A stretch of 40,201 nucleotides of DNA from Bacilli bacterium (lineage in GTDB: Bacteria; Bacillota_I; Bacilli_A; RF39; UBA660). Shown here one piece after another: positions 29,940 to 33,562 of the stretch. The stretch covers positions 1 through 40,201 of the forward strand of contig JAFUTX010000007.1 in assembly GCA_017484065.1 (NCBI GenBank), given 5' to 3'. The position numbers and the translations under genes are program-made. A model generated the notes under the pieces. It was not told the origin of the DNA and did no database searches. It saw only the letters and a list, made by a program, of their open reading frames with translations. Positions within the stretch are counted from its first letter, which is position 1, and every line of letters begins with the position of its first letter.

Positions 29940-30521
29940 CTACATATTTTTTAGAAATAAAATACTTCGCTTTCTTTTAATTAAATATTCTTCTAAGCAA
30001 TAATTGTTTTCATATATTTCTTTGGCAACATCACCAACAAAACGATAGTGCCATGGTTCATAATTAACATTAGTTATATCTACTTTATCCTTCGGGTATC
30101 TTAAAATAAAACCATATTTATATGAGTTATTCATTAACCATTTTTGAGTCGCAGTATTTTCTTGTTCTATTTCTAATTCTTGATATGATTTATCAACTAT
30201 ATCTAAAGCCAACCCAGTTTGGTGTTCACTAGTATTAGGTATTGCAACCCATTTACTTGCTAGTTCATAAGCATCTTCATAATTATAATTATTATCGATA
30301 TAGTACCTTACTTTACGATTAAATAAATACTCTTGTCTTTCTTTAGTTCGATATGCTGATACTATTAAAGGATTTAAACCTATAATAATCATATCATTTA
30401 TCATTTTATCTAAATAAACATATATTCTTTTATCAATTTCATTATCTTGATACTTTGTTAAGTCAACATAGTAATTATCGCTTAAATAATTATCTTTATT
30501 TACTAATATCAAATTCCACAT
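29940..30521 (-). CDS. VanY-type D-Ala-D-Ala carboxypeptidase (M15)
   Basis: 193 residues from MWNLILVNKD. The M15B zinc motifs are intact: SAYRTKERQEYLF, S98-E-H100-QTGLALD107 and E155-PWH158. Such enzymes trim D-Ala-D-Ala stem peptides; VanY-type members influence glycopeptide susceptibility. No signal peptide or anchor is present at the N-terminus, so either it acts inside the cell or export is unconventional. The ATG at 30521 has AGGTGATAATT before it. Its only credible promoter lies about 230 bases upstream, carries the response-regulator-like repeats and must read through a terminator-like hairpin. Confidence 0.88.
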   Translation of the reverse strand: MWNLILVNKDNYLSDNYYVDLTKYQDNEIDKRIYVYLDKMINDMIIIGLNPLIVSAYRTKERQEYLFNRKVRYYIDNNYNYEDAYELASKWVAIPNTSEHQTGLALDIVDKSYQELEIEQENTATQKWLMNNSYKYGFILRYPKDKVDITNVNYEPWHYRFVGDVAKEIYENNYCLEEYLIKRKRSILFLKNM

Positions 30522-30547
30522 AATTATCACCTACAAAATTATATATG

Positions 30548-30584
30548 AAAAAAGATTGATTATACAACTAAATAATCAATCTTT
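30548..30584 (-). terminator. Terminator or attenuator before the vanY-like gene
   Basis: A perfect 13-base stem, AAAGATTGATTAT (30551-30563 on plus) with its complement at 30572-30584, loop of eight, then TTTTTTC on minus. It ends only about 15 bases before the vanY ribosome site, and no usable promoter lies after it. It could end the two-component transcript, or attenuate vanY. Confidence 0.8.
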
Positions 30585-30754
30585 ATCATGAGTGTACTTG
30601 TGCGAATTATTATTTATATTTAAAAATTATTATATTTGTTTGTTATTATTTCTTATCTTTATCTAATCATTTACCACCACCTTTAGTGTTAAGCTTTTCA
30701 AAGTATTAGAGTGGAACACTAAGTTTAAGCTTATCTTTTTTTCTTTCTATATGC
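30585..30754 (-). other. Leader region between promoter and hairpin
   Basis: No protein gene is seen. On minus it has an inverted repeat TTAGTGTT/AACACTAA (30722-30715 and 30690-30683), two copies of AAGCTT around it that allow alternative pairing, then AAAGGTGGTGGTAAATG, a ribosome-like site before a three-codon frame. It could be a folded leader or a small RNA. Confidence 0.4.
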
Positions 30755-30787
30755 ATTATAAATAATGAAGATTGAATAAAGATTGAA
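30755..30787 (-). promoter_or_regulatory. Promoter with direct-repeat operator upstream of the vanY leader
   Basis: On minus, TTCAAT at 30787-30782 and again at 30776-30771 (11-base period), then 10 bases, then TATAAT (30760-30755). No -35 box is present; the repeats take its place, as with PhoB/OmpR-type activators. The same arrangement stands before the two-component operon. Confidence 0.6.
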
Positions 30788-30793
30788 AAATAA

Positions 30794-31948
30794 TTATAAT
30801 TCTACAATAAATTTAGTTATATTATCTTCTGATTCTACATGAATCTTACCACTATGTTTATTAACAATACTTTTAGCTATTGATAAACCTATACCATAAC
30901 TATTACTATTTCTATTTCTTGATTTATCTATACGATAAAACCTTTCAAATATTTTTTCTTGTTCTTCCTTAGGAATAGTTTTACCACTATTAACTACTTC
31001 TATATTAATTTTATTTTTGTGCTTACTCATATTTATTAATACATCACTATTATCATCAGCATGTTTAATAGCATTGTCAACTAGGATATATATTAATTGT
31101 TTAATTTGATCTTCATTACCTATATACTTAATATCTTCTAATATATTTTCTTTTAGGTTAATCTTCTTTTCAAATGCTACACTTTCAAATGCTAATACTG
31201 AAGACGCTATTGCTTTAGATAGATTAAATTCATTAAATACTACTTCACTCTCTTCTACTTTAGTTAAAGATAATAAACTATTTACTAGACCATTCATTCT
31301 TACAGATTCTTTACTTATATTATCTAACCATTTATTATTTTTAATATCTTCTTCTAATAATTCACAGTTAGCATTAATGATAGTCAACGGTGTTTTAAGT
31401 TCATGTGAAGCATCTGATATAAATTGTTTTTGTTTTTTAAATGCTTCATCTACTGGTTCAACAATCCATTTAACTATTTTTAAAGAAATATAATAACCAC
31501 TTATTACTCCTAAAATAAATATACATAAAGATACGATAAATATATTTTTTATATAATTATCTGCTATTGTATTATCCATTAAAACAATTTTAATTTCATT
31601 ATTTTTCTTATTTATCTTATAAACATATTTATCTATATGTCCATTTACATTATCACTATTAATTATCTTATTAACTATTTTATTAATATTCTCTTCTTCT
31701 ACATTGCTATCATTAGTTAAATATGTTAAATTATTACCATTAACATCAATATAATAAATAGTTTCAAAATTATGTATTTTATCATTGTTAATATTTTCAA
31801 ATCCTATAGCTCGATCTAATCTTTTATATGATTCTTCTCTAGAATTACTAAAATTTATTATATTAATTACCATTAATACTATTCCTAAAGATAAAGTTAA
31901 ACTAGTAAAAACAGTTATAAAGACTTTATTTCTTAATTTTTTTATCAT
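30794..31948 (-). CDS. Sensor histidine kinase
   Basis: 384 residues. TM1 is at about 10-32, an extracytoplasmic sensor region follows to about 133, then TM2 at 134-156. The H-box FISDASHELKTPLTI has H182. The ATP domain has the N-box LVDNAIKHADDN, the F-box FERFYRIDKSRNRN and the G-box YGIGLSIAKSIV. Class I kinase that phosphorylates the adjacent regulator. The start overlaps the regulator's stop (ATGA). Position between vanY and a beta-lactamase-like gene suggests a cell-wall signal; the ligand is unknown. Confidence 0.93.
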   Translation of the reverse strand: MIKKLRNKVFITVFTSLTLSLGIVLMVINIINFSNSREESYKRLDRAIGFENINNDKIHNFETIYYIDVNGNNLTYLTNDSNVEEENINKIVNKIINSDNVNGHIDKYVYKINKKNNEIKIVLMDNTIADNYIKNIFIVSLCIFILGVISGYYISLKIVKWIVEPVDEAFKKQKQFISDASHELKTPLTIINANCELLEEDIKNNKWLDNISKESVRMNGLVNSLLSLTKVEESEVVFNEFNLSKAIASSVLAFESVAFEKKINLKENILEDIKYIGNEDQIKQLIYILVDNAIKHADDNSDVLINMSKHKNKINIEVVNSGKTIPKEEQEKIFERFYRIDKSRNRNSNSYGIGLSIAKSIVNKHSGKIHVESEDNITKFIVEL

Positions 31949-32619
31949 TTTGACTCCTCTAATTTATAACCAACATTACGCATTGCTTTAATATTTACTT
32001 TCGAATTAATAAACTTAAATTTTTTTCTTAAAAAAGATACATATACTTCAACATTATTATATTCCGTATCACTTTCAAGTCCCCAAAGTTTTTCTGCAAT
32101 CTGTTCTCTCGTAATAATTTGGTCTTTATTCTTAATGAAATATTCTAATAATTGATATTCTTTAGCACTTAGTCTAACATTCATTTTATCAGTTTTTATT
32201 TCATTATTCTTACTATCTAAAGTAATATCTCCATAAGTTAAATCATCTACTACTACAGTGCCACTACGTCTTGATATAGCATTTACTCTTGCTATTAATT
32301 CTTTAATTTGGAACGGCTTAGTTAAATAATCATCTGCTCCTAAATTTAAGCCACTTATTTTATCATCTAATTCACTTTTAGCAGTCAACATAATAGTCGG
32401 AGTGGTAATACCATCACTTCTTAAAGTTTTAATTATTTCAAATCCATCCATACTTGGTAACATAACATCTAATATAATAGCGTCATAAATACCAGTTGAG
32501 GCTTCTAAATAACCATCATAACCATCGTAGATAGTATCAACTATAAAGTTTTCTCTAACAAATACTTCTTTAATAGTTTCTGCTAATACTTCTTCATCTT
32601 CAATTATTAATAAACGCAT
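31945..32619 (-). CDS. OmpR/PhoB-family response regulator
   Basis: 224 residues. The receiver domain has the acidic pair E7-D8, the phospho-acceptor D51 (ILDVMLPSMDG), T79 and K101 (LTKPF). The winged-helix domain carries EYQLLEYFIKNKDQIITREQI and the recognition helix NNVEVYVSFLRKKF. It ends in TGA, which here must be a stop codon. The ATG has GGGAGATGATTTT upstream. It is probably autoregulated through the TTCAAT direct repeats in its own promoter. Confidence 0.95.
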   Translation of the reverse strand: MRLLIIEDEEVLAETIKEVFVRENFIVDTIYDGYDGYLEASTGIYDAIILDVMLPSMDGFEIIKTLRSDGITTPTIMLTAKSELDDKISGLNLGADDYLTKPFQIKELIARVNAISRRSGTVVVDDLTYGDITLDSKNNEIKTDKMNVRLSAKEYQLLEYFIKNKDQIITREQIAEKLWGLESDTEYNNVEVYVSFLRKKFKFINSKVNIKAMRNVGYKLEESK

Positions 32620-32641
32620 AAAATCATCTCCCTAACTCAAT

Positions 32642-32673
32642 ATTTTAATGCTAAACATTGAATTAAAATTGAA
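32642..32673 (-). promoter_or_regulatory. Promoter with direct-repeat operator of the two-component operon
   Basis: On minus, TTCAAT at 32673-32668 and 32662-32657 (11-base period), 9 bases, then TAAAAT (32647-32642). It matches the layout at 30755-30787. Confidence 0.58.
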
Positions 32674-32767: not shown

Positions 32768-33562
32768 TTAACTCATTAATTTATTAATTTTAATTAATCT
32801 TTTAGCAGTTTCATTCATAAAAGAACTTTTATATTCTTCTTTATTTAGCTGAGTTAAAACAATCAAATAAAATGGATTATTACTCAGTACATACCCACAT
32901 TCATGAATAGCTATATCCCATGAACCATATTTTCTTAAAAAAGAGCTATTATTTAATGTATTAATATCAATTAATTTAACACTAGGTTTTAAAAGATATT
33001 CTTTAAAATAATTACTATATTTATTATTTCCTTCAATGTAATTGATAATATTTTTCCAATATATTAACATATCATTACAATTAATTAACCCAAACTCATC
33101 TTTACCAACCATTGTATATTTGGCACCTAATGATTTACCAAATTGTTTTAAATTGTTCTTCCCTACTAAATCAACAAGTTTTATATAAGCAGTGTTATCA
33201 CTTTCCACAAGAGTTAATTTTATTAAGTCTAAAATTGTATAATAAGTATCATTTCTTTGATATTTAATAATGCCAGTATCTTGTTTTAAATCATTCATTG
33301 TAATTAGTATTTTCTTATTTAAATCAATATTACTATTCTCTTCTTCTAAAAATAAATATAAACAAACTAATATTTTAATTGAACTTGCAGCATAAAAACA
33401 TATATTTTTATTATAAGATATTATGTTTTCTTTGTCTTGATATAAGTATGCTACTTTATTGCCTTTATAAGTTTCTTGTAAATACATATCATTAAGTTCT
33501 TTTATTATATTTAAAATATTATTATTATTTATTTCATAATCAATATCTATATGATAATTCAT
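32768..33562 (-). CDS. Class A beta-lactamase-like serine hydrolase
   Basis: 264 residues. The active-site motif AASSIKILV gives S60-xx-K63; S121-D-N123 is the second motif; KYGSW at 211-215 stands where class A enzymes have K-T/S-G. The order and spacing fit the beta-lactamase/penicillin-recognising fold. A clear ExxLN omega-loop is not seen, so beta-lactamase activity is doubtful; an esterase or transpeptidase-like role is possible. There is no signal peptide. It lies alone upstream of the two-component operon on the same strand. Confidence 0.75.
   Translation of the reverse strand: MNYHIDIDYEINNNNILNIIKELNDMYLQETYKGNKVAYLYQDKENIISYNKNICFYAASSIKILVCLYLFLEEENSNIDLNKKILITMNDLKQDTGIIKYQRNDTYYTILDLIKLTLVESDNTAYIKLVDLVGKNNLKQFGKSLGAKYTMVGKDEFGLINCNDMLIYWKNIINYIEGNNKYSNYFKEYLLKPSVKLIDINTLNNSSFLRKYGSWDIAIHECGYVLSNNPFYLIVLTQLNKEEYKSSFMNETAKRLIKINKLMS

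Follow-up and report, generated by a model that had tools for sequence, protein, structure and literature searches.

The two paired TTCAAT repeats that flank a two-component operon in the 40,201-nucleotide stretch of Bacilli bacterium DNA analysed here (the window) are, with a probability of roughly 85%, operators of the response regulator (RR) encoded between them, which would make this RR an autoregulated, CiaR-like activator of the OmpR/PhoB type with a second operator behind its sensor histidine kinase (HK). The first-pass annotation had described, at two promoters, a TTCAAT pair with an 11-base period followed 9-10 bases later by a −10 element, and both sites were recovered exactly, one before the RR gene (P1) and one behind the HK gene (P2):

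32657..32673, minus strand: P1 operator TTCAAT-TTTAA-TTCAAT, a direct repeat with an 11-nt period; exact match at the RR promoter, also found there in relatives
32642..32647, minus strand: P1 −10 element TAAAAT, 9 nt after the second repeat
31945..32619, minus strand: RR of the OmpR/PhoB type, with a receiver (Pfam PF00072) and a winged-helix DNA-binding domain (PF00486)
30794..31948, minus strand: sensor HK, with HisKA (Pfam PF00512) and HATPase_c (PF02518) domains
30771..30787, minus strand: P2 operator TTCAAT-CTTTA-TTCAAT; exact match directly 3' of the HK stop codon
30755..30760, minus strand: P2 −10 element TATAAT, 10 nt after the second repeat

An RR with receiver and Trans_reg_C domains lies beside a HisKA plus HATPase_c HK whose start overlaps the RR stop codon, which identifies a two-component system of the OmpR/PhoB class, and at both window sites a head-to-tail direct repeat of about 11 nt takes the place of the −35 box, as is typical of promoters of this class. 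The recognition helix of the window RR reads NNVEVYVSFLRKKF and is of the Glu-Val type. A promoter and terminator consensus scan missed P1, P2 and a terminator-like hairpin beyond P2, because the promoters have no −35 box and the hairpin stem is not GC-rich. Assignment to the VanRS type, and with it a van operon, was rejected: the RR, the HK and a nearby VanY-type protein all scored far below the van family cut-offs, and inspection of the ORFs of 26-38 kb revealed no apparent vanH, van ligase or vanX. Upstream of the operon, the product of 32768-33562 on the minus strand resembles class A beta-lactamases (Pfam Beta-lactamase2) and has SxxK and SDN motifs; by eye it shows neither a KTG-type motif nor a signal peptide, and it scores far below beta-lactamase cut-offs.

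That the repeats are chance occurrences in AT-rich DNA (the window has 26% G+C) is extremely improbable. The exact TTCAAT-N5-TTCAAT motif occurs twice in the window against 0.15 expected, a count reached by none of 100 shuffles, and the positions of the repeats are deeply conserved in relatives, as described below. In favour of chance, looser versions stay at background level: two-mismatch repeats in the window show no excess (28 versus 28.2 expected), and across the whole 1.19-Mb genome neither repeats with at most one mismatch (43 including the 4 exact ones, versus 72 in the control) nor the degenerate TTYAAT repeat (27 sites versus 23 in the control) are enriched. The lack of excess among two-mismatch repeats indicates that the signal is carried by the exact motif alone, and the one-mismatch repeats inspected were nearly all within coding sequence and without a −10 element. 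By contrast, the genome-wide search for the exact motif that had been proposed as a check returned 4 matches against 1 in the reversed control. All four lie between genes, read toward the gene that follows and have a −10 element 9-10 nt on, rather than being spread over coding sequence at a similar rate, although coding sequence makes up 93% of the window. Beyond P1 and P2, the third exact site (contig C10) precedes a gene for a 628-amino-acid surface-type protein with weak beta-helix similarity, and the fourth (contig C11) precedes a VTC-domain gene followed by genes for a DUF4956 protein and a Cthe_2159 carbohydrate-binding protein. The region before this VTC operon (L230, G000 C11, 6712-6806) holds tandem operators: TTCAAT-N5-TTCAAT lies nearest to the operon, and about 70 nt upstream of it a TTCAAT-N5-TTTAAT repeat overlaps a TTTAAT-N5-TTTAAT repeat. 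At another intergenic locus (L274, G000 C8, 3753-3769), the one-mismatch repeat TTCAATGTTATTTAAAT with a −10-like TATATT may be a further weak site.

Conservation was examined in 27 loci from the window's own family, with RRs of about 46-56% identity, and in a second set of mostly clostridial loci, 79 of which were scored for P1 and 69 for P2; expected counts came from dinucleotide shuffles. Family loci were counted with TTYAAT-N5-TTYAAT, the repeats there being TTTAAT, and clostridial loci with TTCAAT. A site before the RR gene was found in 14 of 27 family loci (0.06 expected) and in 24 of 79 clostridial loci (0.00 expected), and a site after the HK gene in 19 of 27 (0.16 expected) and 29 of 69 (0.04 expected), respectively. 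The repeat is thus present at orthologous promoters far above chance, where its absence would have counted against the proposal. Sites on the RR strand outnumbered those on the opposite strand by 41:2 in the family and 63:6 in the clostridial set, and the best −10 element lay 9-10 nt past the second repeat at 32 of 41 family sites and 56 of 60 clostridial sites. Because these counts, the strand bias and the −10 spacing all recur in relatives, the layout of P1 before the RR and P2 after the HK is, on comparative grounds, a conserved feature and no coincidence of the window. About half of the RR promoters in the family, and two thirds of those in the clostridial set, have no exact P1 within 120 nt, indicating that autoregulation through the TTCAAT/TTTAAT motif would not be universal.

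The recurrence of sites at the RR promoter and after the HK lends comparative support to the earlier proposal of an OmpR/PhoB-type site that replaces the −35 box and includes autoregulation, with binding itself a prediction. It is improbable that the repeats instead serve one or more other OmpR/PhoB-type regulators of the cell, even though the related RRs CiaR and RR_1586 bind similar TTAAG-type repeats. The sites flank both ends of the RR-HK operon, they differ with the RR's own recognition helix, and no other RR in the genome matches the window RR at E<=1e-30. They also track the presence of a window-type RR: the TTTAAT operator pattern was found in 32 of 36 RR-positive versus 47 of 156 RR-negative family genomes (p=7e-11), a count that includes sites beside the RR and so is not independent of the positional counts for P1 and P2.

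The third base of the repeat varies with the recognition helix. For RRs with a Glu-Val helix, which include the window RR and those of all clostridial loci, the third bases of the two repeats were C-C in 78 cases, T-T in 1 and other in 11, while for the Glu-Ala RRs of the main family clade they were T-T in 40 of 40 and C-C in none, so that Glu-Val goes with TTCAAT and Glu-Ala with TTTAAT. On the RR tree the Glu-Ala/TTTAAT state arose only once, and the covariation therefore represents one evolutionary event; we regard it as a strong lead, short of proof. That the window genome is AT-rich like the rest of the family and yet keeps the C argues against mere AT drift. The window RR clusters with Lachnospiraceae RRs (99/90 and 99/84) and not with the main clade of the family. 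The circuit may have arrived by horizontal transfer, which we do not claim because a tree constraint holding the family together was not rejected (AU p=0.118).

The gene 3' of P2 varies among relatives. In the family it is an HtrA-like protease (Trypsin_2 plus PDZ) in L224, L228 and L236, and also in L217 after a small thioredoxin-like ORF; an FtsX-type permease in L210, with an adjoining ABC ATPase, and in L227; and a GH5 protein in L237, 400 nt away. One-mismatch sites precede an HtrA-like protease in L209 and a VTC-DUF4956-Cthe_2159 set in L223. Clostridial P2 genes are mostly VTC-DUF4956, others being a Cthe_2159 protein (L049), HlyD-like proteins (L043, L056, L057) and an HtrA-like protease (L085). 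About 20 clostridial loci have VTC-DUF4956 genes near the RR-HK pair. The spacer AAAAC of this genome's VTC operator is also common before clostridial VTC genes. Where a family genome has a VTC gene, the gene was preceded by an exact operator in 4 of 6 RR-positive versus 0 of 14 RR-negative genomes (p=0.003), and in 3 of 5 versus 0 of 14 when the window's genome was left out (p=0.01). In four family members (L007, L008, L009, L011) a beta-helix surface protein gene lies directly upstream of the RR gene. Relatives have VTC and beta-helix gene types linked to the corresponding RR-HK pair, which supports the two additional targets predicted here. Of the 'wall-stress circuit' in the first-pass annotation, the broader sense of an envelope-related circuit is a fair description of the predicted targets (VTC/DUF4956/Cthe_2159, beta-helix, HtrA-like and FtsX-type proteins), but wall stress as such is a guess.

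Which transcript P2 makes in the window is a separate matter, for which the following features are relevant:

30551..30748, minus strand: predicted P2 transcript of about 190 nt, with an inferred start and no convincing ORF
30551..30584, minus strand: terminator-like hairpin between P2 and vanY, with a 13-bp stem and T-run (−15 kcal/mol, z −5.7)
29940..30530, minus strand: VanY-type D-Ala-D-Ala carboxypeptidase (Pfam PF02557, E=1.2e-36), starting at GTG 30530 or ATG 30521; a questionable P2 target

VanY trims the stem peptides of the cell wall, an activity that would suit an envelope regulon. P2 is directed at vanY with no gene in between, and in many relatives P2 precedes a gene for an envelope or secreted protein, so that vanY could be a direct target reached through a 240-nt leader, with leaky or conditional termination at the hairpin, as at an attenuator. 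We consider this doubtful, since the strong terminator-like hairpin stands just before vanY, the 240 nt from P2 to vanY exceed the distance of within about 150 nt found in most relatives, and the 29 further vanY homologues examined in the family all lack a zero-mismatch operator within about 450 nt upstream. The homologues without an operator include a 62%-identical one (same-genus genome without a window-type RR). The claim that vanY is a target is therefore not supported as a conserved feature. Two family vanY homologues with a one-mismatch, AT-rich match in an unfitting context were judged noise, and in L047 vanY merely adjoins the RR gene and has no operator itself.

A tentative alternative, still short of an even chance, is that the product of P2 is a small RNA, about 190 nt long and ending at the hairpin, or that P2 is the leftover promoter of a decayed gene. 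A transcript-sized stretch without a convincing ORF followed by a terminator-like hairpin is consistent with this, as is the example of CiaR, which drives csRNAs in streptococci from the same promoter layout (PMC3091779). Against an RNA gene, the leader had only low-complexity AT matches in 193 family genomes, an Rfam search of the region gave no match, and the leader body folds no better than shuffled sequences (z about 0). The ORFs of the leader comprise at most 18 codons from a GTG, or ATG-ATT-AGA-TAA after the strong ribosome-binding-site-like AAAGGTGGTGG, and this three-codon ORF with its RBS-like sequence is no less suggestive of decay than of an RNA gene. Taken by itself, the stretch 30551-30748 might represent a decayed gene, a small RNA or an attenuator. 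We rate a short terminated transcript, or a P2 gene slot that has decayed, as no less likely than direct control of vanY, and because the slot seems to hold only a leader and a terminator, vanY would be a read-through target at most.

In PhoB-type activation, a phosphorylated RR dimer on the repeat replaces recognition of the −35 box. We propose that the phosphorylated window RR would likewise bind each 11-nt-period pair as a head-to-tail dimer which, sitting 9-10 nt upstream of the −10 element, would take over the role of the −35 box and recruit RNA polymerase. P1 would then provide positive autoregulation of RR-HK, and P2 a second RR-dependent promoter for whichever gene settled behind the HK, in this genome apparently just a leader that runs for about 190 nt to a terminator ahead of vanY. 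The two further operators would control the VTC-DUF4956-Cthe_2159 operon and the beta-helix surface protein. Computation showed directly where the sites lie, how rare and how conserved they are, and how they vary with the RR helix; RR binding, activation rather than repression, dependence on phosphorylation and the signal are inferred. The mechanism is built on analogy with PhoB and on the layout of the CiaR box (PMC3091779).

The regulon thus outlined appears to be new while of a known regulatory kind, with binding predicted; paired TTCAAT or TTTAAT strings had no match in the open-access literature searched. More broadly, we tentatively suggest a widespread and apparently undescribed regulon of Clostridia and this AT-rich family, in which one helix residue and one operator base switched in concert, the arrangement of P1 and P2 was preserved, and different envelope genes came to occupy the place behind P2. 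If true, a Val-C contact exchanged for an Ala-thymine methyl group contact would constitute a one-residue, one-base specificity switch, and the covariation would offer a small, clean test case for change of DNA specificity in OmpR/PhoB regulators. A hunch from sequence has become a defined, testable regulon, shared by many gut bacteria that are uncultured and by some clostridia in culture, such as Faecalicatena orotica, and one that would link poorly characterised genes (DUF4956, VTC, Cthe_2159 and beta-helix proteins) to a single sensor associated with the envelope.

Among described systems, CiaRH, BAS0540-BAS0541 and the Clostridioides difficile RR_1586 come closest. CiaR of streptococci recognizes an 11-nt direct repeat whose last copy lies about 10 nt before the −10 element, and feeds back on its own operon (PMC3091779, PMC8317062). 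The window system resembles CiaRH in its RR-HK pair, predicted own-operon feedback, repeat period and distance of about 10 nt to the −10 element. The recognition helices of the two regulators (VVEVYVSKVRKKL against NVEVYVSFLRKKF) agree at 9 of 13 positions. An HtrA-like protease stands behind RR-HK and P2 in several relatives, and htrA is a classic CiaR target (PMC8317062). However, the CiaR box is NTTAAG-N5-TTTAAG with an invariant final G (PMC3091779), whereas the TTCAAT/TTTAAT repeats end in T, and the window repeats were therefore not filed as a CiaR box. The window system further differs by its second operator after the HK, and by exact sites in this genome that serve VTC-DUF4956-Cthe_2159 and the beta-helix protein, htrA not being among the four. 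BAS0540-BAS0541 of Bacillus anthracis, a CiaRH homologue, binds TTTAAG-N5-TTTAAG, including at its own promoter (PMC4938410), and its box and predicted regulon are unlike those found here. RR_1586, also of the OmpR family, binds DRTTAAGNWWW twice as an 11-nt direct repeat with putative autoregulation (PMC6222199); it shares these general properties, seen or predicted, with the window RR but differs in its TTAAG core, in repression in reporter assays and in its predicted targets in sporulation and germination (PMC6222199). Finally, Gram-positive pel loci carry a polyphosphate-polymerase gene beside DUF4956 as accessory genes with cotH (PMC7112168). The same adjacency is seen in our loci; the parts of that report concerned with these genes tie them to pel and cotH and describe no RR link, whereas here they are joined by Cthe_2159 and an RR operator.
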